Shown here piece after piece: positions 23,723-45,916 of a DNA stretch of 47,239 nt. Within the stretch, counting starts at the first letter, position 1. Each line of letters opens with the position of its first letter. The notes beneath the pieces are model-generated. The model saw only the letters and a program-made list of their open reading frames with translations. It searched no databases and was not told the origin of the DNA. The position numbers were made by a program, and so were the translations under genes. The DNA comes from Bacteroidales bacterium (lineage in GTDB: Bacteria > Bacteroidota > Bacteroidia > Bacteroidales > F082), in the NCBI GenBank assembly GCA_017548125.1, contig JAFYNK010000094.1, positions 1 to 47,239 on the forward strand. Reading direction: 5' to 3'.

Positions 23723-25618
23723 ATGGACAATGTCTTATTTCCATCATTATATGAGGAAGATTATATTCTTCGATCGTTAGGAAGTATAGTAAATCAACCA
23801 GATATAGCGTTAACAGAACTTGTTGCAAATGCCTGGGATGCTGGTGCTTCTAATGTTAATATATTCATACCAGATGAAAAAGGTCAGATTCTTTACATTG
23901 AAGATAATGGCATAGGAATGTCAGAATCTGAATTTCAGAATCATTGGATGAGATTACGTTATAATCGTTTAAAAGAACAAGGCCGTAAAGTAATATTTCC
24001 TAATGGAACTAATGGCAATAGATACGCATTCGGTCGCAATGGTGTTGGACGACATGGTTTGTTTTGCTTTGGCTCCGAATATAAAGTAATAACATCTAAA
24101 GATGGGAAAAAACTAACATTAATAGTGAAACCTAATGTTAATTCACAACCATTTGCTGTTGTTGAAAAAAGTGAGGAAAGTACTACAGAAACAGGTACTA
24201 GATTGGAAGTTTTAGTAACAAAAAACCTTCCAAAAACAGAAAAAATTACAGAAATATTATCTGCCAGATTTTTACACGACCCTCAATTTGTAATAACTGT
24301 AAATCATGTAACTCTTAGCTTAAACGATCTTATTGGCGAAAATGAACCTGTTGAAATTGATATAGAAGGAACTAATATACATTTGACAGCTTATTTTATT
24401 GATACTACAAAAGTTGGTAGAAAAAGTGTTTTTCAAGGTATTGCTTTTTGGCAATCAGGCAGACTCGTTGGAGAGCCATCTTGGTCTTTAGGTAAAAATC
24501 TAATTTTAGATGGAAGAACTACATTAGCAAAAAGATATACTTTCATCATAAAATCTAATAATTTAGACGAATTCATAAAAGAAGATTGGAGTGGTTTTAA
24601 AATATCCGAAGATATGGAAAAAGTATACAAGGCCGTTGAAGATTTTGTAAACAAATCACTTGACAGCATCTCATCCACTACAATTACAAATATAACAGAA
24701 AATCTTGACACTCCCATCAAGCAATCTCTAGAAAAATCAAATCCATTAGTTCGAGAAGAAGTTAAGAATATTATTAATGAAATAGTAAAAAATAATCCAA
24801 AGGTAAAACAAGAATCTGTAGACTTAGTAGTACAGACCGTCATTAATTTGGAAAATTCTAAAAATGGACATGAACTATTGGAAAAATTATCCACATTAAA
24901 TTCAGACGATATTGAGGGATTGAACAAGTTATTAAGTAAATGGACTGTAAGTGATGCTTTAGTCGTACTTAATGAAATTGACCGAAGATTGTCAATTATA
25001 ACTGCAATTAAAAAACTTGGAAGAGACAAAAATAAAGATGAATTACACGTTTTGCATCCTATGATTGCAGAGTCAAGATGGTTATTCGGACCAGAGTATG
25101 AATCTTCAGAATATATATTTAACCAACAGATGAAAAGTGCTGTAGAAAAAATATTTAAAGATATAAAATACTTAACTACTGATGCAAATTATAAAAAGAG
25201 ACCTGATTTAATATGTTTGCCTCAAAGTACTATGAGTGTAACCGGAATAGAAGACATTCCTTCTGACTTAGGACTTGTTAAAGTCCGCAAATTATTACTT
25301 GTAGAATTAAAAAAAGGCGGATATAAAATAAAGAGAGATGAACGTAATCAAGCTCAAGGATATGTTGAAGATTTGTTGAATTCAAATTTAGGAACAGATT
25401 GTCAAATTACAGCATATGTTGTTGGAGATTCGATAGCTGATAATTTAACTTTTTCTACAACAGTTGGAGAAGGACGTGGAATCCTCTATGTAACAACATA
25501 TGATCAATTAGTTGATACTGCCGAAAGAAGAATGTTTGGTCTTAGAGAAAAGATAGCATCTCGTTATGACGATATACCAGGTATGGAATTATATGCTCAA
25601 TCAAAGTTGAATATATAA
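23723..25618 (+). CDS. GHKL (MORC-like) ATPase fused to a probable PD-(D/E)XK nuclease
   Basis: A 631-residue protein. The N-terminal GHKL ATPase has the N box ELVANAWDAGA (E32, N36, D39), G1 box DNGIGM (61-66) and G2 box GRNGVGRHG (104-112), the layout of bacterial MORC/HSP90-like ATPases. A transducer-like region follows, then a long helical stretch (about 300-450). The C-terminus has KRPDLICLP (about 490-499) and LLLVELKKGGYKIKRDERNQAQGYVEDLL (about 522-550): an Asp, then E-x-K and a downstream Gln, as in PD-(D/E)XK nucleases. Related ATPase-nuclease fusions were described by Aravind and co-workers among restriction-associated genes. Its own promoter and a shared terminator with the convergent NACHT gene make it a stand-alone unit. 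A phage-defence role is inference. Confidence 0.82.
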   Translation: MDNVLFPSLYEEDYILRSLGSIVNQPDIALTELVANAWDAGASNVNIFIPDEKGQILYIEDNGIGMSESEFQNHWMRLRYNRLKEQGRKVIFPNGTNGNRYAFGRNGVGRHGLFCFGSEYKVITSKDGKKLTLIVKPNVNSQPFAVVEKSEESTTETGTRLEVLVTKNLPKTEKITEILSARFLHDPQFVITVNHVTLSLNDLIGENEPVEIDIEGTNIHLTAYFIDTTKVGRKSVFQGIAFWQSGRLVGEPSWSLGKNLILDGRTTLAKRYTFIIKSNNLDEFIKEDWSGFKISEDMEKVYKAVEDFVNKSLDSISSTTITNITENLDTPIKQSLEKSNPLVREEVKNIINEIVKNNPKVKQESVDLVVQTVINLENSKNGHELLEKLSTLNSDDIEGLNKLLSKWTVSDALVVLNEIDRRLSIITAIKKLGRDKNKDELHVLHPMIAESRWLFGPEYESSEYIFNQQMKSAVEKIFKDIKYLTTDANYKKRPDLICLPQSTMSVTGIEDIPSDLGLVKVRKLLLVELKKGGYKIKRDERNQAQGYVEDLLNSNLGTDCQITAYVVGDSIADNLTFSTTVGEGRGILYVTTYDQLVDTAERRMFGLREKIASRYDDIPGMELYAQSKLNI

Positions 25619-25756: not shown

Positions 25757-27706
25757 TTAAATTCCATCCAATAATATTGATGAGTCCTCACTATTCTTAA
25801 TCATAATGTTAATTCGTGTTACCTCTTCACAACATTTCTGATAATCCAAATATAAATAATTTAAATTTTGCGCTGTAACCAATAAATAATTTATTTCAAT
25901 ATACAGTTCTTTATTATTATCTCCAGATAGAACGTCTATAACTTTCATTTGATCAAATGGATTATTCTTTGAATCCACATGACTCTCTTGAGATATTATG
26001 TTGAATAAATTTTTATTACGACTCGTTAATATATTTATTATTTTTCGACATGGTTTAATGTTTGTTGCAATAAAACGTTTATTCATATTGAGCATTAAGG
26101 AACTAAAAGTAAGACCTGTTACTTTTTCTATATTTTTTTTCAATTTTTTAAAATATGTAAAATCCATTATGTCAAATTCTTCAGATGTGTCAATGTTTCC
26201 GACACATATCGATTGCGCAAATAAAAGGCCTATTCGTTCTTCAACATATTGTTTATCAATTACGGATGATTCAAATATGTTGTCATTATAAAATTGTATA
26301 TATTCTTCAAGTAGAGGGTATATGATATTTTTAGTAAACCCAATGTTATCAATGTCGTAATAGATATCAAAAATATTTATGTATTCATCCATATGTATAC
26401 TTTCATACATTTTTTTTAATATATGTTCTTGGTTCTTTTTGGCATCCTTAAAAATAAACTGTGCTGCAAAATATTCTTGTAATGACTTATGCACCCATTT
26501 ATAATAATGTCCATCTTTACAAAACAATGGAACTGTTAATAATAAATCATGAAGATAATCTGAAGATTGAAAATCAAGATCTTTACAAAATTGTTTTGCC
26601 TCCTCTATAATACCTAACAAGGAAGACTTTTCAAATTCAATTTTTTGTTGTTTTAAACACAGAAAACCTATATGTCTTAAAACTCTATCAAAATCATCTA
26701 TATCAAGACCTGATTTCTTATCATGCACATAACTATCTCCTTTAGATAAATCATGAGAATCAAAATAAGCATCATATACTTGTCTATAAAAAATATGTTT
26801 TTTTAAAGGAATGGTTTGCTTGTGGTCAAATGCAGCATATAGTAAAGACACAAGAAGAGGATTCTTTAAGAAATCATCTATCATCGAATATTGTCCATTT
26901 TTTAATGTATCAATTAGTAATTTCGATGTATTACCTTGTTTATCATACTTTCTTAACAATTCATATGCCTCTTTTTTGTTGAGTGGATTTATACTAAATT
27001 TTTGAAAATCTCCAAAACTTGCAATGGCCTGCTCTGGTCGAGATGTAAGAATAAAATAATTGTTACTAGTCCTAGAAATAAAATCTTGTATATTAGTTGT
27101 AACAACATTTCTATCATTTAGTGCAATCTCATCAAAACCATCAAGAAAAAAGACAAATCCCCCAATACTTATAAATTCATATAATAATCTTATGTCAAAA
27201 TTCTTATTTAATGAGTTTACTTGTTCAATAATTTCTTGTAATATTGTTCTATCTCTATTTAACCTTCGTAATTCTATAAAAATTGGAATACCAACGCCAT
27301 TATCAATAACATCTAAAAACAAACGTTTTGCTAATGTTGATTTCCCCATACCTGCAGTATCAGTTATTAGTATTTTATTATATTTTTTCAACACATCTAT
27401 AGGGAAAGATGTTATTTTAACTTGTTCATGAGTTCCATCATGTTCATTTTTTTTGACTAATGTCAATGGTAAATACAGATCTTTTAATAATTTTTGTTCA
27501 TTTTTTAAGGCAATAGTATTGATGATACTATATTTTTTATATGTTCTATGTAAATATTCTTCAAAATGTTCCCCGCGAGGTATTAGTATTTCATTATATT
27601 TAATTTCAAGTTTGTCAGCAAATTTTTTTATTTTAGGAGTAATAAAATCATTCACTAATGCTGAAATAGCGGGCTTTGCCGTTTCTAATAGTATTTCAGA
27701 TATCAT
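25757..27706 (-). CDS. NACHT-domain STAND NTPase
   Basis: A 649-residue protein. After a helical N-terminus, the NACHT core shows Walker A ITDTAGMGKSTLAKRL (about residues 114-129), Walker B FFLDGFDEIA (186-195, with the extra acidic pair typical of NACHT) and ILTSRPEQ (219-226, sensor). The winged-helix region includes NPLKNPLLVSLLY-like DFLKNPLLVSLLYAAF and W-HKSLQEYFAAQFIF, a hallmark of NACHT proteins. The C-terminal 180 residues lack LRR, TPR or WD repeats and are not recognised. Bacterial NACHT proteins (bNACHT) protect against phages; the effector here may be the short N-terminal region (ETAKPAISALVNDFITPKIKKF) or unknown. It has its own promoter and is flanked by defence genes. Confidence 0.88.
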   Translation of the reverse strand: MISEILLETAKPAISALVNDFITPKIKKFADKLEIKYNEILIPRGEHFEEYLHRTYKKYSIINTIALKNEQKLLKDLYLPLTLVKKNEHDGTHEQVKITSFPIDVLKKYNKILITDTAGMGKSTLAKRLFLDVIDNGVGIPIFIELRRLNRDRTILQEIIEQVNSLNKNFDIRLLYEFISIGGFVFFLDGFDEIALNDRNVVTTNIQDFISRTSNNYFILTSRPEQAIASFGDFQKFSINPLNKKEAYELLRKYDKQGNTSKLLIDTLKNGQYSMIDDFLKNPLLVSLLYAAFDHKQTIPLKKHIFYRQVYDAYFDSHDLSKGDSYVHDKKSGLDIDDFDRVLRHIGFLCLKQQKIEFEKSSLLGIIEEAKQFCKDLDFQSSDYLHDLLLTVPLFCKDGHYYKWVHKSLQEYFAAQFIFKDAKKNQEHILKKMYESIHMDEYINIFDIYYDIDNIGFTKNIIYPLLEEYIQFYNDNIFESSVIDKQYVEERIGLLFAQSICVGNIDTSEEFDIMDFTYFKKLKKNIEKVTGLTFSSLMLNMNKRFIATNIKPCRKIINILTSRNKNLFNIISQESHVDSKNNPFDQMKVIDVLSGDNNKELYIEINYLLVTAQNLNYLYLDYQKCCEEVTRINIMIKNSEDSSILLDGI

Positions 27707-27846: not shown

Positions 27847-29760
27847 TCACTTCCCCTCCACTACCCTAATTTCCTCCTCCGTCAATCCGTATAATTTATA
27901 GACTAATTTGTCAATTTCTTGTTCTAATAATGAAGCGTCTGCGCCACTATCGTTTTTCTTGATTTGAAGAATATCATCTACTATATCAATGATTTCTTTT
28001 TGTAAAGATTGACTTGTTTGCGGTATTGGCAACTGTTCATATAAATACGTTTGTATCTCAGGAAATACATCTTCCTTTTTTGTAGAGAATTTCTTTTTGT
28101 AATAAAAATCCAAAAGTTTTGAGTTAAGCAAACCTAAAACGAATTTTGTTTTAAATCCTTTCTTTTCATCTATTTTTATTCCATATACGTTTTTATTAAA
28201 TCCGTATGGAATGTCTGATACCGTTGCTTCTAAACATACATCTACTCTCCTAAGATAAATCAACTCGTTGTTAAAAAAAGATGCGAGTCTGCCAAATTCT
28301 TTGTGCTTTATATCAATATAGGTGTTATCCCATTGAATAGAATACTTCTTCATATCTTGTCCAATAAGTGAAGGTATTCCCACCATAGTGTCTCGCATAT
28401 TCTTTTTTGAGATTTCAGCTCCTCTTTTGGATGTTGATATTTCTTTGAGTTTTATATTATTGCTCAACTTGGATAACAAGGTTATAATACTTTTATCAAT
28501 ACCTATTGTCCATTCATAATGAAGATTCGTTAAACAATATTCAATATCAATAGGTGTATTTTCTTCAAATAATCGAGATTCATTGTTGTATTTGTACAAT
28601 GGAATTTCTTTTTGAATATCGTGTTTATTGGTAAATAATATTATACTATTTTCAGTAACTGCTGTTTCAAAAGGATTACATAATGAGATATGTTTGATAA
28701 ACATATTATTCGAAAAATATTTTCGCATTAGTTCATCTTCTAAATTCAACATCCAAAATTTGGGTGTTATAAAATTTAGACATCCATTACAAGCTAGTAG
28801 TTTCTTAACACCTAACTCATAAAACATTTTATATAAATCAGTATTCCATTCATATTGTGGATAATCCTTTTTATTTACAACCACATACGGCGGATTTCCT
28901 ATCACAATATCAAATCCTTTCTTGGCGTATGTCAGCTTACTGAGGTCGAGACCGCGATAACTCTCTATGAGCGAGTTGCCCTGCATAATCTTGTAATCCA
29001 AGTTTGGCAATGGAGATGGCGTTTCTTCATCTACCACTATGGAGAGCCAGAATCTCAGACGTGCTATATCGACGGCTCCTTTCTCTATGTCAACACCATA
29101 GATGTTGTTTTGGATGATATCTTTTTTAATTTGGGAACGGGAATTGGGGACGAGATATGGGGATGGAAACGATGGTTGTATGTTTTTTATCTCGTTCTCA
29201 TATTTTATACTTGTTTCCATAATCCCGTTCCCTGTTCTCGTTCCCAGCAATGCTTCACGGCATTTCAATAATTCGTTAAGTAATCCCATTGGGAATGCGC
29301 CGGAGCCGATGGCGGGGTCGCAGATTTTGACGTCTTTCAATGCGTCGAGGAGCTTGCCTTTTTTGTTTTCGGGTATGTCGGATACGCCTTCTTCTGGTGT
29401 GATGACGAACTTGCGTATCTTCTCAGCAGCGATGGAAGTGGCGGTGTCTAAATATGCTATCAGGGATTCCTGGCACATGTAACGGACAATCTCTTTCGGT
29501 GTGTAGAAAGCTCCTTTGTCTTTGTTGTCTTCCAAGAGGTTCTCGAAGATCTTGCCGAGCATCTCTGGGTCAACACCTACTTCAGCGTCGTTAGGGTCGT
29601 TCTCGTCGATGGTGAAGTTATACTCGCTGAAGAAGTTAAACAATCGTCTGAAGAGTTCCGCAGGGAACTTGCTCTCGGGTTCGTCGTTTTCGTCACGCTC
29701 GAAGAGTCCGCCGTTGAGATATGGTATGTCGCTCCATTCGGCGAGCAGTGATTTGTCCCA
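27847..29760 (-). pseudogene. Eco57I-type DNA methylase, N-terminally truncated
   Basis: The open frame encodes about 638 residues. It begins abruptly at TGG GAC AAA directly after an in-frame TAA, with clear family sequence (WSDIPYLNGGLFERDE, FNFFSEYNFTIDEND) but no start; the first usable codons are inside (e.g. TTG at 29643). Present are the adenine-methylase motifs GAFYTPKEIVRYMCQESL, motif I DPAIGSGAFPMGLL (about 148) and motif IV NPPY (about 290), and a C-terminal target-recognition region ending QLPIPQTSQ...LDD. Full-length relatives of this type II/BREX-like methylase are roughly 1000 residues or more, so the N-terminal third is gone. The break lies at the edge of the inserted cassette (29764 onward), and the start of the usual partner helicase remains at 33779-34132. 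Confidence 0.85.
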
Positions 29761-29875
29761 TTAGTACGAACATACATTCGTTTTTGTTTGTTAAGATGAT
29801 ATACTAACGAATAATTGTAATCAAAGTTAGTTGAAAATTAAAAATTAAAAATTAAACTTATAATGATATATTTTT

Positions 29876-29883
29876 TAACTTTG
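29876..29883 (+). promoter_or_regulatory. -7 box (TAACTTTG) of the AAA/TOPRIM cassette
   Basis: TAACTTTG 37 bases before the AAA ATPase start; identical to the box of the GHKL gene. No good -33 TTG at the normal distance. Confidence 0.55.
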
Positions 29884-29920
29884 CAAAGTTTACATTATAA
29901 TCAACAAGGTCGCAGTAACA

Positions 29921-30955
29921 ATGTTTAATAGAATTGAAATAGAGAGATTTAGGGGAATACGTTATGCCTCTATTGATGGATTCAAGCAGATTAATTTATT
30001 TTTTGGGAAAAATAATTGCGGCAAATCTTCATTGTTGGAATCTTTGTTTTTAGCTAGTGGTTTGTCGAATCCGTTATTGCCAATACATGTTAATATAATG
30101 CGTGGTTACGGCAAAGTTCGTTTAAATGACCTTAAATTAGATTTCTACAATTTAGATTCAAGTCTGCCAATTCATATTATGATGAAAAATGAAGAAAAGC
30201 GAGATTTGAAGATTAGCCTAATTGAACAAAATCAAAACAATATATCTTTGAATGCAAGTGATGCAAATATTTTGTCGAATGTGGAAGAAGGAAAGTATGG
30301 GTTGAAATTTGATTTTATGATTGATGACAAACCTTTTGAGTCACAAATAAACTTTAATTCCTCGGATTCCCAAAATATAACTCGCAATGTACCTAATGAT
30401 TATGTAGAATCATTACAATGTATATATTTAAATCCCAAATATGATTTTAATGCATCAATACAAGGACTAAATAAAATTCTTCAAAACAAGGATGAACATT
30501 TCATTGTGGATGGTCTCAGGATAATAGAGCCACGTGTTAAGGATTTTATTTTTACAGATAATGATGTACTTGTTGATATAGGCCTCAAAAAGCGTATACC
30601 TGTAAATATGATGGGTGATGGTGCAAGAAAAATGGTCTCACTCCTTACGGCAATATATGATTGTAAAGATAGTGCATTGTTGATTGATGAAATTAGCAAT
30701 GGTTTCCATTATTCTGTAATGTGTGATTTATGGAAAGTCCTTATAAATGCTGCGATTAGAAATAATACACAATTGTTTGTGACAACTCACGATGTTGATT
30801 CTATAAAAGGATTAAGAGATGCTGCACTTGAGAATTATAGAGATATTGTTGCCACTTTTAAATTATTGAAAACTTCTTCTGATGAATTAAAAGCATATCA
30901 CTATTCTTTAGAAAGTTTGGACTATTCTATTAACCAAGAAATAGAAGTTAGGTAA
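29921..30955 (+). CDS. AAA/ABC-type ATPase (AAA_15/AAA_21, OLD-like)
   Basis: A 344-residue SMC/ABC-like ATPase. The opening IEIERFRGIRYASIDGF and Walker A FGKNNCGKSS (29-38) are typical of OLD, Gabija and AriA ATPases; GDGARKMVSLLTAIYD (about 232-247) corresponds to the signature region, ALLIDEISNGFHY (about 251-263) is Walker B plus D-loop, and TTHD (about 286-289) is the H-loop. Its stop codon is one base from the start of the TOPRIM-type gene, so the two are coupled. In PARIS the ATPase AriA senses phage and holds back the TOPRIM nuclease AriB; a similar division of labour is proposed here by analogy only. Confidence 0.88.
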   Translation: MFNRIEIERFRGIRYASIDGFKQINLFFGKNNCGKSSLLESLFLASGLSNPLLPIHVNIMRGYGKVRLNDLKLDFYNLDSSLPIHIMMKNEEKRDLKISLIEQNQNNISLNASDANILSNVEEGKYGLKFDFMIDDKPFESQINFNSSDSQNITRNVPNDYVESLQCIYLNPKYDFNASIQGLNKILQNKDEHFIVDGLRIIEPRVKDFIFTDNDVLVDIGLKKRIPVNMMGDGARKMVSLLTAIYDCKDSALLIDEISNGFHYSVMCDLWKVLINAAIRNNTQLFVTTHDVDSIKGLRDAALENYRDIVATFKLLKTSSDELKAYHYSLESLDYSINQEIEVR

Positions 30956-30956
30956 T

Positions 30957-31598
30957 ATGACTAAGATTTTTATTGAAGCCGAAAAAAGAGATACACCAGA
31001 ACACTACTTTCTTCAAAGTATTATAAATGTCTTCTTTCCAGAAAAAGATGTGGATTTTATATATATGAAAGGAATTGGCAATCTATTTAATCAAGCAATC
31101 ATTAATCAGATAAAGTTAGCACAAGAAACGGGTGAGCAGGTCATAGTTATCGTTGATGCAGATACTGTTGCTAAAGGATATGGATATAATAAGCGTAAAG
31201 AAGAAATAGAAAAAGGAATGGCAACTAATTCAATATCATTTTCTTATTTTATTTATCCTAATAATAACGACAATGGTGATGTAGAAACCTTAATGGAAGC
31301 AGCTGCTCTTTATGCTCCGAACAAAGTTTTTTTTGATTGTTATAATGATTACGAAATCTGTCTTAGAGGTGTAAAAGACGACAATGGTGAATCTATATAT
31401 AATATCCCAAACTTAAAAGGAAAAGTGTATGCTTATGCAGCAGCACAAACAATTTACGACACACAACAAAAACAGCGTAAACCATTAATTAAGAAAATGA
31501 GCGGTGGTAATTGGTTATTTGACAACAAAGACTATTGGAACTTAAATGTTGATGTATTACAGCCTTTAAAAGATTTTTTGAAAGAAAATCTTAAGTGA
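30957..31598 (+). CDS. DUF3226-like TOPRIM protein (putative nuclease partner)
   Basis: A 213-residue protein with TOPRIM features in order: IFIEAEKRDTPE with the first acidic residue E7, VIVIVDADTV with D67 and D69, and FIYPNNNDNGDVETLME at 98-114, the segment usual in DUF3226/TOPRIM proteins. TOPRIM domains coordinate Mg2+ and cleave or nick nucleic acids. A conserved LIKKMSGGNWLFDNKDYWNL block lies near the C-terminus. It begins one base after the upstream ATPase stop. The arrangement ATPase plus separate TOPRIM equals PARIS (AriA/AriB) in design, although AriB is DUF4435, not this family. Assignment as nuclease/effector is inference. Confidence 0.8.
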   Translation: MTKIFIEAEKRDTPEHYFLQSIINVFFPEKDVDFIYMKGIGNLFNQAIINQIKLAQETGEQVIVIVDADTVAKGYGYNKRKEEIEKGMATNSISFSYFIYPNNNDNGDVETLMEAAALYAPNKVFFDCYNDYEICLRGVKDDNGESIYNIPNLKGKVYAYAAAQTIYDTQQKQRKPLIKKMSGGNWLFDNKDYWNLNVDVLQPLKDFLKENLK

Positions 31599-31669
31599 GC
31601 ATTTAGATTATGACAATATAAGGTAGCATTTGTATAAATCAAATATTTATAACCTCTATATCCAATTAT

Positions 31670-32524
31670 ATGGAAAAACATTTCAACTCTATAGAATATG
31701 TAAAGGGACTTTCTGAAGAACTGATAGACAGTTTTAAAAAAGCGAATAAAGCTACAACTCCCGTTTTAGTTGGTAATGCAAAAGAAAAAGCTGTTAGAAA
31801 TAAATTGGAAAAGATCTTTCCTCAATCGATAGGAATTTCTACTGGGTGTATAATTGATGTAAACGGACATACTAGCAAACAAACAGATATTGTGATATAT
31901 GAAAAAGATATATGTCCTGTTTTTTCAATAAATGATACACCTGAGAGTACATATTATCCATGCGAAAGCGTAATTGCTATCGGAGAAATTAAAAGCACAT
32001 TAAATACAAATACAATTGAAGATTCTTTTAGTAAAATAAAATCTGTCAAAGAATGCATCAGACATTCTTCTGATAATATGTATTGGAGAAAATATTGTTC
32101 ACGCCAAATTATTTATGGTTCAGAATCTGAAATTTATAATCAGGAAGCGAATGCTTTTGATCAAATATATGGTTTTATATTATGTGAAAAAATAGAATTA
32201 AAAATAGAAACATTTACCAACCAATGTATTGATTTGATTAAAAATACATCTGCACATTTATTACCCAATATTATAGTTTCATTGAATGATGGAATACTAG
32301 TATATATAGATACATCTTGTACAAATAATTATTTTATAAGAGAAGACAAGCATAATGCAGATAGCATTTATTTTATTGAAGTTCCAAGTGGAAATTTTCA
32401 ATATTTATTACATGAACTTAATAAATTTATAAATAGAGGTCGCTCTTCTAATATTTTACCATTTAACAAATACATCATAGGAAGTAGCTCTTTGCCAGGA
32501 ACTGGATTAATATGTCAGATATAA
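31670..32524 (+). CDS. DUF6602 protein, PD-(D/E)XK-like
   Basis: A 284-residue protein matching DUF6602: GNAKEKAVRNKLEKIFPQSIGISTGCIID, then SKQTDIVIYEKDICPVF and YYPCESVIAIGEIKSTL (residues about 33-115). The spacing E...D-I-V-I-Y...(V/I)-x-E-I-K is the pattern of a PD-(D/E)XK-type nuclease or nucleic-acid-binding fold. The C-terminal half (about 150-284) is not recognised. It follows the TOPRIM gene by 71 bases on the same strand and could be a third member of the cassette or an independent gene; DUF6602 genes often occur near defence genes. Function unproven. Confidence 0.78.
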   Translation: MEKHFNSIEYVKGLSEELIDSFKKANKATTPVLVGNAKEKAVRNKLEKIFPQSIGISTGCIIDVNGHTSKQTDIVIYEKDICPVFSINDTPESTYYPCESVIAIGEIKSTLNTNTIEDSFSKIKSVKECIRHSSDNMYWRKYCSRQIIYGSESEIYNQEANAFDQIYGFILCEKIELKIETFTNQCIDLIKNTSAHLLPNIIVSLNDGILVYIDTSCTNNYFIREDKHNADSIYFIEVPSGNFQYLLHELNKFINRGRSSNILPFNKYIIGSSSLPGTGLICQI

Positions 32525-32535
32525 AATCATCTATA

Positions 32536-33693
32536 TTATTTATCAAACAACCTTTGCCTAATTTCTTTAATTCTATGTTTAGCAATATTTAAATGATTGA
32601 TAATATCGTCACATTCTTCTTTGCTATATATTGGCAATTTATAATGGCTAAGACACAATTCTATGCTATTCTGTGAAACTATAATATTCATATCCATTTC
32701 ACCGCATTTAAATTCAGTATTCGTGCCTAATACTTTCTTTCGAAGTTCTTCTGCTGTTTTCCAATTGTTTTTATAAGCATTTATGTATTTGTCTATTTCA
32801 TTTTCTTGTATGGAAATGAATGTACCTTTATATCTGGCATCTGGACCAGGAAAATAAAATTCTATGAATGCATGAGTTGAACCAATACGCAATGTACCAT
32901 AATTATCCATAAATTCTTCAGTGTATTCCCCATTTATTTTAGGAATAGTTAAATTATGTGTATTGTCAAATTGCTGATTATTATTTAAGTCATTGTGCTT
33001 ATGTTTTTTATCATTACTAAATTTTGTTAATGATGATTTTGATTTAGACTCAAAATCTGTTTTTGGACGATTGCGAACATAAAATATAGATCTTATATCT
33101 TTTTTCACATCTTTTTTATTCTGAAATAATTGAGGAATACCACCAGCCCCAATTAATAATGTTTTAAAACCAATCATTCCTAATACTATACCTCCACCAA
33201 ATTCAGGATCCCATTCCCATGTAAAGAAAAGTATCAATGGGTAACTCCAATTCAATATTATCATTCCAATAAGTAGCGTAATAATTATATTTTCATTTTT
33301 ATTATATTCATTGGAAACAATATCTGTTTCATCTTGATATATGTATTTATTATCTTTCAATCCTATTATTATAACTGAAATTATAATTTCAATAATACCA
33401 AAAACAAGTACAGAGAAGAACATAAACCAATCAAAGAAATAAAAAGTAACAAAACCACCAATAGGGCATAATAGATCTAAAATACCACCAATTATAATCC
33501 CAATCTTATGTTTCTTAGAACTATAATGTTTAGGATCTCCTGGAATGTATGTAGAATGGCCAGAACTGCTCATGCTATCTAATGCTGCAAATGGTGCCAA
33601 CAATCCATAAGCCATCGTTTTAGACACCAAAGAGGTCATTTTTTTATTTGATCTTGTCTTAAATATGTTACTGCCTGTTCTTCTATATCCCAT
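32536..33693 (-). CDS. membrane protein with cytoplasmic C-terminal domain, hypothetical
   Basis: A 385-residue protein I do not recognise. Residues about 60-200 hold roughly four to five membrane segments (IGIIIGGILDLLCPIGGFVTFYFF, FMFFSVLVFGIIEIIISVIII, IIITLLIGMIILNWSYPLILFF, GGGIVLGMIGFKTLLIGAGG). A charged linker rich in Lys, Ser and Asn leads to a soluble C-terminal domain of about 150 residues (EEFMDNYGTLRIGSTHAFIEFYFPG, ELCLSHYKLPIYSKEECDDIINHL). It is convergent with the DUF6602 gene, with 11 bases between stops, and lies inside the cassette that interrupts the restriction locus, so a defence role, for instance as membrane effector, is possible but unsupported by homology. Confidence 0.7.
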   Translation of the reverse strand: MGYRRTGSNIFKTRSNKKMTSLVSKTMAYGLLAPFAALDSMSSSGHSTYIPGDPKHYSSKKHKIGIIIGGILDLLCPIGGFVTFYFFDWFMFFSVLVFGIIEIIISVIIIGLKDNKYIYQDETDIVSNEYNKNENIIITLLIGMIILNWSYPLILFFTWEWDPEFGGGIVLGMIGFKTLLIGAGGIPQLFQNKKDVKKDIRSIFYVRNRPKTDFESKSKSSLTKFSNDKKHKHNDLNNNQQFDNTHNLTIPKINGEYTEEFMDNYGTLRIGSTHAFIEFYFPGPDARYKGTFISIQENEIDKYINAYKNNWKTAEELRKKVLGTNTEFKCGEMDMNIIVSQNSIELCLSHYKLPIYSKEECDDIINHLNIAKHRIKEIRQRLFDK

Positions 33694-33715
33694 AGTTATA
33701 TGTTTTTGTGTTTCG

Positions 33716-33723
33716 CAAATTTA
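33716..33723 (-). promoter_or_regulatory. -7 box (TAAATTTG) of the membrane-protein gene
   Basis: Minus-strand TAAATTTG 22 bases upstream of the start codon. Confidence 0.55.
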
Positions 33724-33778
33724 TAAAATTATTCTAATTCTTTTAAGATGTTTGAACGGTTAATTATGCTTCAATTAT

Positions 33779-34132
33779 TCAATTAGCATGTATGCACATC
33801 TGCAGTATCCCCTCCTCTACTTCCTGGGAATATTGCGCGTTGACGATGTCGTCTTTGAAGTCTTTATTGTAAATTTCCTTTGCCTTCTCCTGGTTGGAGA
33901 GCATCAGCAGAGCTTTGTTGTGTTTGCGGAAGATATCGTCGATGTTGATACCGACGAGAATCTTTATCTCTGATATGTCGCCCAATTCCTTGCGTAGCTT
34001 GAAGTAACCCGACGAGCGGAAGAAACCTACCACTGCGAGGAAACTATCGAACGACGACATACCATTGGCAATGCCTTTGAGTTTGTCAAAGAGCGTATTG
34101 CCAGGTTCGTTGTTGAAGAACTTGGTACTCAT
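33779..34132 (-). pseudogene. 5' fragment of a PLD/SNF2-type helicase gene
   Basis: The 117-residue product is the N-terminus of a large helicase with a leading PLD-like nuclease domain: MSTKFFNNEPGNTLFDKLKGI, FLAVVGFFRSSGYFKLRKEL, IKILVGINIDDIF, IVNAQYSQEVEEGILQM. Family similarity stops at about residue 112 and the frame ends after five foreign codons (CIHAN), whereas relatives are roughly 1000 residues. Such helicases are normally encoded directly upstream of an Eco57I-type methylase like the truncated one at 27847-29760. The base composition is also higher in GC than the cassette next to it. Confidence 0.8.
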
Positions 34133-34197
34133 GCGCTATATTTTTGCGAGCGGCTACTTATTTGGCAAAACGGGCTTTTCTGCAGAGCACAAAAAAA

Positions 34198-34316
34198 CGT
34201 GGGCGATAATCTTGTCCACGTCCTGAGGCCCTGAGAACTGCCCGCATTAACAAACAAGTCACGCCCACGCTATAAGCGCAGACATTCACGACTTGTTCGA
34301 GTTAATGCATTTTTTG
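34198..34316. other. structured intergenic element (possible small RNA or mobile-element remnant)
   Basis: Several long complementary segments are nested here: GCATTAAC (34244-34251) with GTTAATGC (34301-34308) and, directly inside, ACAAGTC (34254-34260) with GACTTGT (34290-34296); CGTGGGCG (34198-34205) can alternatively pair with CGCCCACG (34262-34269); CCTGAG (34222-34227) matches CTCAGG at 34323-34328. On the plus strand the main hairpin is followed by ATTTTTTG, a terminator-like end. The GC content exceeds that of the flanks. I do not recognise it as a known RNA family. Confidence 0.5.
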
Positions 34317-34467
34317 AAATTTCTCAGGTTTCAAGGACGTTACCGAACAAATAGCAAACGCTATGATTAATAATTATATGTCAGTTTAAGATATTTCTGT
34401 TTTTTAGTGTTTGTTTAAATGTTAAAAGTGTTAAATGTTGTGTGGCAAAGATAAGAAAAAAAGTATA

Positions 34468-34745: not shown

Positions 34746-34876
34746 CTTAACAAATCTTAACACCATTTCTTAATTTTTCACCGCTTTTATGTTAAAAATT
34801 GTTAAAATAGAAACAATTCCTTTACAAACGCTTGACAAATGATTAGCGGCGTTGTAATTTTGTGGGACCAAAATTT
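34746..34876 (+). repeat. duplicated upstream region, copy 1
   Basis: About 130 bases starting CTTAACAAATCTTAACA and running through ATGTTAAAAATTGTTAAAA, the -33/-7 promoter and CCAAAATTTA closely match 37183-37313, upstream of the other DUF1016 gene. Confidence 0.85.
34832..34862 (+). promoter_or_regulatory. promoter of DUF1016 gene 1
   Basis: TTG at 34832-34834 and TAATTTTG at 34855-34862, 20 bases apart. The position places transcription start after the earlier in-frame ATG (34839), so translation begins at 34884. Confidence 0.75.
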
Positions 34877-34883
34877 ATGTTAC

Positions 34884-36068
34884 ATGAAAAAAGTCATTAA
34901 TAGCAAAGAGGAAAGTATTTTCCTCGATTCATTAAAGGATATCGTTAAGTCAGCTAGAAAACTTGCTTATTCATCTATTTGTTTTGCACAAGTCCAATCG
35001 AATTGGCTATTAGGGAAACGTATTGTTGAACAAATACAGAAAGGCAACGACAAAGCTGAATATGGAAAGCATATTTTAAAAATTGCCTCTGAATCTCTTA
35101 CTGAAGAATTTGGTAAGGGATATTCCACAACCAATCTAAGAAGTTTTAGAAAGTTTTATTTGATTTTCAAAGATTATGCAATTGGTCAGGCAGTGCCTGA
35201 CCAATTCGAAAAACCAAAAGGGCAGACACTGTCTGCCGAATTCGATGAGTCAAAAAGGCAGGCAATGCCTGCCAAATTTGAAAACTCAAAACAGCAGACA
35301 GCGTCTGCTAAATTGGAAAACGAAAATCAGCAGGCATTGCCTGCTATATTGAGTTGGACTCATTACGAGCGCCTTATGAGAATTAAAGAAAAAGAAATCA
35401 GAGATTGGTATATGAGAGAAGCTTCAAATCAAATGTGGAATTACAGAACATTAAATAGAAACATCAACACACAATATTATGAAAGGATGTTGATTTCTCA
35501 AAAGAAGACTGTTGTTGAAAATGAGATGAAAGCAAAAACAAATTCTTTTCAGAATGACAAACTAGAATTCATCAAAAATCCCACGGTTTTAGAATTTTTA
35601 GGATTACCTAATAATCAATCGTATTTAGAAAAGGATTTGGAAAAAGCTATTTTGTCAAATCTCAGCGATTTCCTTATGGAACTTGGAAAAGGTTTTGCTT
35701 TTGTTGCACGACAACAACTTATAAGGACAGAATCAGAGGATTATTATATCGATTTGGTTTTCTATAATTATATTCTGAAAGCTTTTGTCCTGATTGATTT
35801 AAAAGTCGGCAAAATCACTCATCAAGATGTCGGTCAAATGGATATGTATGTGAGAATGTATGATGAATTAAAAAAATGTAATGATGATAATCCTACTATC
35901 GGAATTTTACTTTGTTCTCAAACAGATAAAGATATTGCTAAATATTCAATATTAAAAGGGAATGAACACATTTTTGCATCCAAATATAAATTGATTTTAC
36001 CAACAGAAGATGAATTGGCAAATGAAATAAAAAAACAGAAAGATATATATTTTGATTCAATATCTTAA
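34884..36068 (+). CDS. DUF1016 (YhcG-type) PD-(D/E)XK nuclease, copy 1
   Basis: A 394-residue protein. The N-terminal DUF1016_N domain (SARKLAYSSICFAQVQSNWLLGKRIVEQ, GYSTTNLRSFRKFY) is followed by LSWTHYERLMRI, then the nuclease domain with FAFVARQQLIRTESEDYYIDLVFYNY (D-L-V-F-Y) and FVLIDLKVGKITHQDVGQMDMYV (the usual E/D-x-K is D-L-K here). Characterised relatives are Holliday-junction-like or restriction-associated nucleases; cellular function is not settled. Between the two domains (about residues 100-155) lie five in-frame 12-residue repeats (GQAVPDQFEKPK, GQTLSAEFDESK and so on) whose DNA forms five palindromes. The promoter region is shared with the paralogue at 37320. Confidence 0.88.
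   Translation: MKKVINSKEESIFLDSLKDIVKSARKLAYSSICFAQVQSNWLLGKRIVEQIQKGNDKAEYGKHILKIASESLTEEFGKGYSTTNLRSFRKFYLIFKDYAIGQAVPDQFEKPKGQTLSAEFDESKRQAMPAKFENSKQQTASAKLENENQQALPAILSWTHYERLMRIKEKEIRDWYMREASNQMWNYRTLNRNINTQYYERMLISQKKTVVENEMKAKTNSFQNDKLEFIKNPTVLEFLGLPNNQSYLEKDLEKAILSNLSDFLMELGKGFAFVARQQLIRTESEDYYIDLVFYNYILKAFVLIDLKVGKITHQDVGQMDMYVRMYDELKKCNDDNPTIGILLCSQTDKDIAKYSILKGNEHIFASKYKLILPTEDELANEIKKQKDIYFDSIS
35181..35345. repeat. five palindromes in 36-bp tandem repeats inside DUF1016 gene 1
   Basis: Palindromes are centred at 35193, 35229, 35265, 35301 and 35337, exactly 36 bases apart: ATTGGTCAGGCA-G-TGCCTGACCAAT, GGCAGACA-C-TGTCTGCC, GGCAGGCA-A-TGCCTGCC, AGCAGAC-AGC-GTCTGCT and AGCAGGCA-T-TGCCTGCT. 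Arms differ between units (GGC/GCC versus GAC/GTC) with matching changes on the other arm. The units are 12 codons, so the frame is kept. Confidence 0.95.
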
Positions 36069-37012: not shown

Positions 37013-37107
37013 GGGCGTTCCGCTACGCGTCGGGCTTTCCGCTATATCTTTGCTCGCTCCGCTAACGCTTCACTCGCAAAGGATGCCGCTCCAATCCCTA
37101 ACGCAGA
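37013..37107. repeat. dispersed Bacteroidetes repeat (gggcgttcc...ccctaacgcaga), copy 1
   Basis: About 95 bases, matching 45762-45869 nearly word for word (CGTCGGGCTTTCCGCT, TCTTTGCTCGCTCCGCTAAC, GCAAAGGATGCCGCTCC). This family is widely seen in Bacteroidetes intergenic DNA. It contains a chance-like -7 box TATCTTTG. Confidence 0.85.
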
Positions 37108-37182
37108 CGGCTACGAGTAACGAACAGCTAGCTTTGAACAAAACTGCTCACAACTCATAGCTCACAACAAAAAGCAAACACT

Positions 37183-37313: not shown

Positions 37314-37325
37314 GAAATCGTGGAA
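37295..37325 (+). repeat. 31-bp direct repeat, left copy
   Basis: TTGCATCAACCAAAATTTAG followed by AAATCGTGGAA, ending in the GTG start and second codon of DUF1016 copy 2. An exact copy lies at 38375-38405, at the head of RhuM. Confidence 0.95.
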
Positions 37326-38354
37326 AACAACATTTTAAGTTCATCTGAAAATTACGATGAAAAGGATTATCAGGAATTACTGCACGATACCATTGCAGTT
37401 ATAGAATCTTCACGCATACATATTGCCAAACAAATCAATATGCATGTCATATCTTCTCATTGGGAGATTGGAAAACTTTTAGAAGAACGCAAACTCGACA
37501 GCAAACACGGAGATCAAATTGTCAAAAGATTGTCAGGAGATCTGAAAGGAAGATATCCTAATATGGGATTATCTCCAAGAAACCTATGGGATATGAAACG
37601 ATTTTATCTTCGTTATTATCAAGATGATATAAAACTGCGACAAGCTGTCGCAGTTTTGCCATGGGGACATAATCTACTATTATTAAACAACGATTTATCA
37701 TCCGAACATATTCTTTTCTACGCCAACGAAGTCATCTCAAAGAATTGGTCTCGTAGTATGCTACTTCTCGCTTTGAAATCTGAATATCATCTTTCAATAC
37801 AGGCTAGCGAAAAATCTAACAATTTCGCAATTACCATGTCTGAAGAAAATGCAGAATATGCCAATGAGATTTTCAGAAGCCACTATCATCTCGGATTCAT
37901 TGATGCCATTGAGCCTCTAAAAGAATTGGATTTAGAACGACATCTTGTCAATAAAATCACCTCTTTTATTATGGAATTAGGTAACGGTTTTAGCTTTATC
38001 GGAAATCAACACACATTATCATATAACAATAAGGAATATCACGTTGACTTATTGTTTTTCCACCGTAAACTACGTTCTATGATTGCTATTGAATTGAAAA
38101 TCGGCGAATTCAAACCTGAATATATTGGCAAGATGAATTTTTATTTGTCGTTGTTAGACAAATTGGAAAAAGCGCCAGATGAGAATCCTTCCATTGGCAT
38201 TATCCTTTGCGCTGGCAAGGATCATTTAGAAGTAGAACTAGCTTTACAAGACATCAACAAACCAATAGGAGTCGCTGAATTTCAATATCTATTACCACAA
38301 AACAAACTTGAAACAATGATCACCAATGAAATAAAGAAAAGAAATATGAAATAG
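37320..38354 (+). CDS. DUF1016 (YhcG-type) PD-(D/E)XK nuclease, copy 2
   Basis: A 344-residue paralogue of the protein at 34884. Features: HVISSHWEIGKLLEERKLDSKHGDQIVKRLSGDL, PNMGLSPRNLWDMKRFYLRY, LPWGHNLLLL, and the nuclease motif FIGNQHTLSYNNKEYHVDLLFFHRKLRSMIAIELKIGEFKPEYIGKMNFYL with D (in VDLLFF) and E-L-K. The catalytic residues are intact. It begins with GTG: the promoter lies just upstream and there is no earlier in-frame ATG. It lacks the five 12-residue repeats of copy 1 but has one 12-bp-arm palindrome at the equivalent place, before LPWGHN. RhuM follows after 15 bases. Confidence 0.88.
   Translation: MENNILSSSENYDEKDYQELLHDTIAVIESSRIHIAKQINMHVISSHWEIGKLLEERKLDSKHGDQIVKRLSGDLKGRYPNMGLSPRNLWDMKRFYLRYYQDDIKLRQAVAVLPWGHNLLLLNNDLSSEHILFYANEVISKNWSRSMLLLALKSEYHLSIQASEKSNNFAITMSEENAEYANEIFRSHYHLGFIDAIEPLKELDLERHLVNKITSFIMELGNGFSFIGNQHTLSYNNKEYHVDLLFFHRKLRSMIAIELKIGEFKPEYIGKMNFYLSLLDKLEKAPDENPSIGIILCAGKDHLEVELALQDINKPIGVAEFQYLLPQNKLETMITNEIKKRNMK
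37631..37657. repeat. perfect palindrome inside DUF1016 gene 2
   Basis: AAAACTGCGACA-AGC-TGTCGCAGTTTT, 12-bp arms, encoding KLRQAVAVL just before PWGHN; the same position relative to the protein domains as the palindrome array in DUF1016 gene 1. Confidence 0.95.
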
Positions 38355-45761: not shown

Positions 45762-45869
45762 GGGCGTTCCGGCTCCGCTTCCGCTCCGCCGTCGGGCTTT
45801 CCGCTCTATCTTTGCTCGCTCCGCTAACGCTTCACTCGCAAAGGATGCCGCTCCAATCCCTAACGCAGA
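45762..45869. repeat. dispersed Bacteroidetes repeat, copy 2
   Basis: Second copy of the 37013-37107 repeat, with a slightly longer GC-rich start (gttccggctccgcttccgct). Confidence 0.85.
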
Positions 45870-45916
45870 AGGGCTACCACCACCAAGTTGCGAACCTTGA
45901 ACAAAAAAAATGTTCA

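Follow-up and report, generated by a model that had tools for sequence, protein, structure and literature searches.

What event left the beginning of one restriction gene and the end of another on either side of four unrelated genes? The question is raised by positions 27847-34132 of contig JAFYNK010000094.1 (assembly GCA_017548125.1) of a Bacteroidales bacterium of the gut, the whole 47,239 nucleotides of which were analyzed and are called the window here. The minus strand carries the start of a PLD/SNF2-type helicase gene and, beyond a cassette of low GC content, an Eco57I-type methylase gene without its start. The initial annotation of this DNA proposed that about 1.5 genes had been replaced by a new defense cassette. 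Comparison with relatives supports that proposal and amends it: the cassette is composite, the event is one of five in the genus, and the word ATTAG found at both edges has no meaning. It is highly probable that a full restriction locus was ancestral and that foreign defense DNA replaced its middle, with illegitimate or short-homology recombination as the probable route. The parts of the locus are as follows.

33786..34132, minus strand: 5′ remnant of the PLD/SNF2 helicase, reference residues 1 to about 127 (BLAST and alignment)
29761..33785, no strand: replacing cassette, 28.5% GC; its left edge may reach 29790
27847..29760, minus strand: 3′ remnant of the Eco57I-type methylase, without about 290 N-terminal and about 95 internal residues
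27847..28918, minus strand: C-terminal specificity region of the methylase, low in GC (29%) (sequence comparison)

The two remnants and the cassette between them

The intact form of the locus is present in relatives. In Bacteroides pyogenes (G148), a full-length helicase (1097 amino acids, aa) and a full-length methylase (1078 aa) are adjacent, and locus L170 matches this locus at 100%. A search with the helicase N-terminus confirmed 317 loci, of which the best 80 were named, so genomes close to the query are over-represented among the 80; 70 of them have a full helicase (one in two pieces), nine run off a contig end, and one (L148, in the relative G066) is replaced. Of 89 loci, 73 have both the C-terminus of the helicase and the N-terminus of the methylase, separated by 11-1172 bp, in a count that did not require methylase 3′ ends; the two families are thus normally adjacent in this order, as first supposed. 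Within 99 genomes of the same genus, 48 helicase loci were defined by an N-terminus at least 41% identical to that of G148 with an E-value of at most 1e-20, more distant helicases being excluded; they comprise 35 full-length open reading frames (ORFs), two frameshifted genes, six that run off contig ends and five replaced loci. With full helicases at 35 of the 48 genus loci and 70 of the 80 named loci, the short forms are derived. Conserved stand-alone short genes with no full-length locus, the finding that the initial annotation had named as contrary to its proposal, are not what the relatives contain.

Alignment of the intact loci to both remnants set the break points. About 127 of the 1097 helicase residues are left, none of them from the motor, in an open frame of 117 aa (33779-34132). 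BLAST homology to G052 and G066 ends at 33794, close to the abrupt end at about 33795, after some 112 codons, that had been noted initially. This edge appears at 33794 because the window, compared with the reference helicase, has lost 33 bp there between two CTGCAGATGYGC repeats. Beyond the deletion, eight bases, ATACATGC, again match the intact helicase by our reading of the alignment, and the helicase edge is therefore placed at 33786, near reference residue 127; the truncation stands and its position has moved. At E ≤ 1e-20, the two full-length proteins have no match in the whole genome other than the window remnants, and a search of the window for the lost parts of the helicase and methylase found no leftover.

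The methylase remnant is homologous at the DNA level to L141, L137 and L023 as far as 29748-29760, and protein homology begins at residue 292 of 1078. Weak DNA similarity to the replaced relative G066 continues to 29790, which places the edge somewhere from 29760 to 29790; the methylase had been described as lacking its N-terminal third from 29760 on, and about 290 residues are indeed missing. Eco57I and TaqI_C domains are detected in the remnant, which falls short of a whole methylase. The earliest in-frame start codon of the remnant, a TTG at 29643, opens a frame of 598 aa. A second injury is the in-frame loss of about 95 residues between LTYAKKG and FDIV, a stretch kept in all four relatives aligned. 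The nearest relative found for the specificity part is G076 (77% DNA identity over 27952-28918), and for the catalytic part G046. Inverted matches to the specificity domain lie downstream of the methylase in L142, L143, L144, L156, L159, L170, L178, L198, L208, L216 and L219, which suggests an invertible (phase-variable) methylase specificity.

About 3.9 kb was lost from the window and 4.0 kb stands in its place. The difference in composition seen initially is borne out by GC contents of 28.5% in the cassette, 45.8% in the helicase remnant and 46.9% in the catalytic part of the methylase. The word ATTAG, located at 29760-29764 and 33782-33786, had been considered too short to prove a mechanism. 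Both copies lie outside the sequence common to intact relatives, and two random 12-bp stretches of the cassette have a common 5-mer 11% of the time; ATTAG was rejected as a target duplication, being at chance level. No repeat joins the two cassette edges, no terminal repeat or target duplication was found, and a profile scan of the cargo detected no recombinase domain; no mark of a transposon or integrative element was thus seen. Its four genes are listed below.

29921..30955, plus strand: AAA_15 ATPase, AbiLi/PDC-M38A/AriA-like, 344 aa (profile models)
30957..31598, plus strand: DUF3226 partner, putative Toprim protein, 213 aa (profile model)
31670..32524, plus strand: DUF6602 nuclease-like protein, 284 aa, resembling the NucC core (residues 15-134)
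32536..33693, minus strand: putative membrane protein, 385 aa, without a family match

These genes were initially read as an AAA ATPase, a TOPRIM protein, a DUF6602 protein and a membrane protein; profile models agree on AAA_15/AbiLi, DUF3226 and DUF6602, and the Toprim fold and the membrane nature remain putative. The ATPase is a full-length AbiL ATPase by its match to AbiLi (E 4.4e-59, residues 1-344 on 1-340 of 340); PDC-M38A and AriA match it less well (PADLOC AriA, 8.9e-21; AriA chain, 4.6e-4 over 77 residues). Its nucleotide-binding loop GKNNCGKSS is invariant in four homologues, as are residues E7, D67 and D69 of the DUF3226 partner, a pattern that we take to be that of Toprim proteins. 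A predicted structure of the partner (predicted local distance difference test score, pLDDT, 72) gave no match in the PDB below E 0.001 in a fold search. AriB-type Toprim proteins belong to DUF4435, and the partner has no AriB match at E 0.01; nor has it an AbiLii match at 0.01, the presence of an AbiLii model in the library being unchecked. The ATPase-DUF3226 tandem is found in other Bacteroidales, at best with 83% and 58% identity. Divergence within the pair is unequal, the ATPase being 81-83% and the DUF3226 protein 56-58% identical to relatives in other families (L258, L259). The DUF6602 protein contains a nuclease core by its similarity to NucC (model, 3e-14; NucC chains, 1.8e-8), its own predicted structure is unusable (pLDDT 32), and no cyclase or type III CRISPR gene is among the four cargo genes. 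The fourth gene lies on the strand of the helicase remnant, 85 bp past its stop codon, and is called a membrane protein by our reading of hydrophobic stretches alone.

The cassette is composite: in the DNA examined, there are ATPase-partner pairs that have no DUF6602 gene with them, and G054 has DUF6602 but not the pair. A single conserved system of ATPase, DUF3226 and DUF6602 was rejected on the same observation. The search for the cassette at other sites, proposed at the outset, showed that other genomes have relatives of the ATPase and of DUF6602 at unrelated places; a homologous copy of the whole cassette was found neither in 149 relatives nor in a plasmid collection (viral and metagenome collections were not searched); the longest non-self matches in the 149 relatives are 72% over 305 bp (DUF6602) and 68% over 187 bp (the ATPase gene), the others being short. 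To judge from the protein families, the cargo would most likely act by abortive infection, the ATPase sensing infection and releasing the Toprim nuclease.

Replaced loci in the genus and competing explanations

Five of the 42 resolvable helicase loci of the genus are replaced, with five different cargos and different helicase breaks. For each are given the last helicase and first methylase residue retained (both approximate), the cargo, and, where alignments provide them, the lengths of DNA lost and inserted. Two of the cargos are complete type II restriction-modification (RM) systems.

Window: 127/292; ATPase, DUF3226, DUF6602 and putative membrane protein; lengths as above
G066: 243/285; DUF2971, PLD and weak zinc ribbon
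G021: 183/120; C5-methylase and NgoBV-type endonuclease (complete type II RM system); 3.2-3.4 kb lost, 2.7 kb inserted
G155: 208/64; C5-methylase and HpaII-type endonuclease on the opposite strand (complete type II RM system); 2.9 kb lost, 2.5 kb inserted
G079: 141/89; one protein of 506 aa; 3.4 kb lost, 1.7 kb inserted

All five cargos have GC fractions of 0.285-0.388 against 0.41-0.56 in the remnants, and the flanks are up to 94-95% identical to intact relatives, so the breaks are sharp. The helicase breaks, at about residues 127-243 of 1097, all precede the motor (Pfam ResIII begins at 252), which is lost in all five; the methylase breaks, at about residues 64-292 of 1078, all precede the catalytic motifs, and the catalytic region is kept open in four of the five. 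When the window and G066 are counted once, the probability of such clustering is about 4e-4 for the helicase and 0.03 for the methylase, under a uniform null with assumed detection limits of at least 110 aa of helicase and at least 200 aa of methylase remnant. Apart from the two frameshifted genes, none of the 48 genus loci has a helicase cut between residue 250 and the end away from contig ends. DNA similarity between the window and G066 runs about 30 bp past 29760, to the end of the G066 methylase homology (a score reached by 0.1% of 2000 shuffles), in a stretch where two intact relatives show no similarity; the methylase protein homology extends about seven residues further in G066, making the two breaks nearly but not exactly the same. 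This suggests that they have one old methylase-side break in common, followed by a swap of cargo.

The course of events would then be as follows. In a locus with a full PLD/SNF2 helicase and Eco57I methylase, foreign DNA with other defense modules would have taken the place of the middle, the proposed mechanism being recombination that was probably illegitimate or guided by short homology. The helicase motor and the methylase N-terminus would have been lost, and a leader RNA (described below), the PLD N-terminus and the catalytic and specificity parts of the methylase retained. Loss of the restriction engine with sparing of the methylase would be the survivable outcome because a cell that lost methylation first would leave its chromosome open to attack by its own nuclease, and we infer that the events that kill the restriction engine first are those that survive. 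The cargo would have taken over defense, here with an AbiL/PARIS-like ATPase-Toprim abortive module and a NucC-like nuclease.

Several observations weigh against this account. The clustering test hinges on the assumed limits and on few events. The G079 methylase is broken again downstream, so the methylase-sparing rule has an exception, and the window methylase is probably damaged. The G079 cargo has no defense match. The window-G066 similarity may be decayed methylase sequence, which would make the common break less telling. Replacement is almost absent outside the genus, one doubtful short form (G321) having been found in 393 genomes of the order. In this short form (L262, contig C368, 8264-10741), a helicase N-terminus of 333 aa is followed by a protein of 488 aa (AlbA_2-like by eye) in place of the motor; it is possibly a sixth, distant replacement.

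A possible though less probable course is that cargo was inserted between the two genes and that deletions then spread outwards from it, removing the 3′ part of the helicase and the 5′ part of the methylase. One-step replacement and this sequence of events have the same end state and are not separated by the data. Eight of the 73 intact pairs have a gene-sized gap of 727-1172 bp (occupied by YhcG in six, and by ORF6N in one, the eighth, in L189, having no assignment), so insertion first and erosion later is conceivable, and the two further in-frame deletions in the window point the same way; however, no helicase 3′ end or methylase 5′ end survives in any of the five replaced loci, and the cargos of these loci do not resemble the genes that separate intact pairs. 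Chimeric assembly of co-binned strains is quite unlikely: all five replaced loci are on draft contigs of many-contig assemblies, but the two-sided pattern, with both remnants in the right order and orientation and cargo between them, recurs in five assemblies, and the window and G066 methylases end at nearly the same point. It is very unlikely indeed that a PLD-only protein and a short methylase are natural short genes forming a functional variant system with the cargo as partner. The remnant frames are mostly open, and the changes unique to the window methylase at conserved catalytic codons are five synonymous and none non-synonymous, but the branch tested includes time before the event, and the ratio of non-synonymous to synonymous substitution was set aside as proof of methylase function for that reason. 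The five different helicase end points, the prevalence of full-length genus loci, and the TTG-only start and internal deletion of the window methylase all speak against such a system. Replacement of the middle of a full locus is accordingly preferred over these three explanations.

The leader RNA and the surroundings of the locus

Upstream of the helicase remnant is a conserved structured RNA with two parts.

34188..34314, minus strand: leader RNA core (models R1 and R2), with 56 nt between its 3′ end and the start codon of the helicase
34315..34360, minus strand: 5′ extension of the leader RNA, with the pseudoknot strand CCTGAGAA and a conserved AGCGTTTGCTATTT block (alignment)

The core consists of a variable closing helix, two further helices, a GGGC..GCCU hairpin and a terminator-like hairpin with a U run. 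None of 200 shuffles folds as well as the sequence ahead of the helicase (z -3.9), and eight compensatory pairs are found already among four close copies. A model built from these four matches 56 of the 99 genus genomes at E ≤ 0.001, with 106 copies among the matches listed. When the 30 best copies are aligned by fitting to the model, 96% of pair cells are standard and the covariation score is 0.47, versus 0.25 in shuffled alignments and no more than 0.14 in slid ones. MAFFT was used to align 23 of these copies, the other seven, mostly near-duplicates, being omitted. In this alignment, CCUGAGAA forms a pseudoknot with UUCUCAGG, the loop of the GGGC..GCCU hairpin; it is 94% paired, and 28 cells have two-sided changes and none a one-sided change, the helix having been chosen by eye from the alignment that scored it. 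The 30 copies have 23 different strands in the hypervariable closing helix, and TTTT is present at the 3′ end of all 30. The terminator is drawn from the model-fitted alignment; helix 6 as drawn by hand on alignment A10 is out of register and 34% paired. Comparison with 4227 Rfam models gave no match at gathering level (best E 3.4). The copies are recorded as loci L267-L399.

The leader RNA lies 36-68 nt before the helicase in all five replaced loci and in the same place at 13 other helicase loci of the genus (four at contig ends, two frameshifted), most with E-values of 1e-4 to 3e-3. It also precedes the helicase of G092, which belongs to another family; among 56 helicase loci searched outside the genus, some with little upstream DNA, the only match is a weak one in L186 (E 0.04). 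Downstream ORFs start a median of 60 nt past the leader RNA, and an ORF of at least 150 aa on the same strand, starting within -25 to +150 nt, accompanies 77 of the 106 copies, compared with 7 of 106 in the mirrored position. Two copies had no downstream protein; half of the other 104 proteins (52) were labelled as RM components from clustering and Pfam tallies, in which orthologues are not independent: 14 N6_N4 methylases, 12 PLD/SNF2-type helicases, 10 N6/MmeI-type (two below the Pfam cut-off), six EcoRI-type, four D12, three C5, and three HSDR_N or ResIII. The other 52 are mixed, and 22 of them look exported by a crude rule. On the upstream side, 95 partial ORFs include three with a BsuBI/PstI endonuclease domain and seven YhcG among the 25 of 58 families listed, a weak control because the other 33 families fall outside that list and the ORFs are shorter. 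A second model finds the leader RNA in 67 of 295 genomes of the order. Outside the genus, a downstream ORF is present at 24 of the 27 loci that were read; judged by eye, about 11 of the products look exported and three are methylases (L374, L378 and L381), so RM genes are not its sole clients.

The leader RNA is probably a cis-acting attenuator, the alternative being an independent small RNA. More tentatively, it may represent an uncatalogued cis-acting class of Bacteroidales RNA, in which a pseudoknotted sensor and an intrinsic terminator gate RM and accessory genes, and the locus may be a leader-anchored slot whose restriction half is repeatedly exchanged for foreign defense genes with the methylase and leader kept.

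The locus is adjoined on its upstream side by the following gene.

34839..36068, plus strand: YhcG/DUF1016 PD-(D/E)XK protein; related genes are found beside or inside other helicase-methylase loci

A second YhcG/DUF1016 gene of the window is at 37320-38354, and such genes keep company with the helicase-methylase system, lying near its start or neatly between its genes in L022, L025, L033, L035, L156, L168, L181, L185, L192, L197, L205 and L209. On the other side are a NACHT protein with a SNaCT5 end (25757-27706, minus strand) and a HATPase protein resembling type II restriction enzyme models (23723-25618, plus strand), with which the window looks like a wider defense island. Two matches to Flavo-1 RNA, just over the Rfam gathering score, are at 37024-37116 and 45786-45879 on the minus strand.

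Comparison with known systems

Among the papers listed by a literature search of open-license articles in PubMed Central (PMC), none reports this locus or the leader RNA. The locus illustrates how a defense system can be withdrawn and a different one put in its position; complete type II RM systems are among the replacing cargos. With breaks that recur, take away the motor and in most cases leave the methylase, the idea of a safe order of loss for restriction systems becomes testable, and the leader RNA, if it does gate transcription, would offer a general way into the control of dangerous restriction genes in Bacteroidales. In the minimal mobile elements of Neisseria, variable cassettes without mobility genes lie between fixed, whole core-gene flanks, whereas the flanks here are broken genes.

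Like PARIS (AriA/AriB), a proposed class 4 OLD system (PMC10568477), and like AbiL, the cassette encodes an ATPase and a Toprim-like protein on adjacent genes; unlike PARIS, its partner is a DUF3226 protein, with no AriB-type match at the threshold above, and there is an extra DUF6602 gene. That gene resembles NucC in its core, but no cyclase or type III CRISPR gene accompanies it within the cargo. In E. coli, defense genes occur inside type I RM loci, for example DarTG2 between hsdS and hsdR (PMC12255303); those RM genes are whole, while both are cut here. The closest parallel is in Helicobacter and Campylobacter (hrgA, hrgC and the PabI family), where PMC4615327 describes restriction genes replaced by other genes with fragments left, and in one case a whole RM system replacing the endonuclease gene of another. 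As with hrgA and hrgC, unrelated DNA has replaced part of an RM locus, with remnants on both sides and the intact locus in relatives; unlike in those cases, the helicase motor and part of the methylase were replaced here, five times in one genus and mostly by multi-gene cargo. The kind of event is already documented; what is new is the gene pair, the mostly multi-gene cargo and the repetition within one genus.

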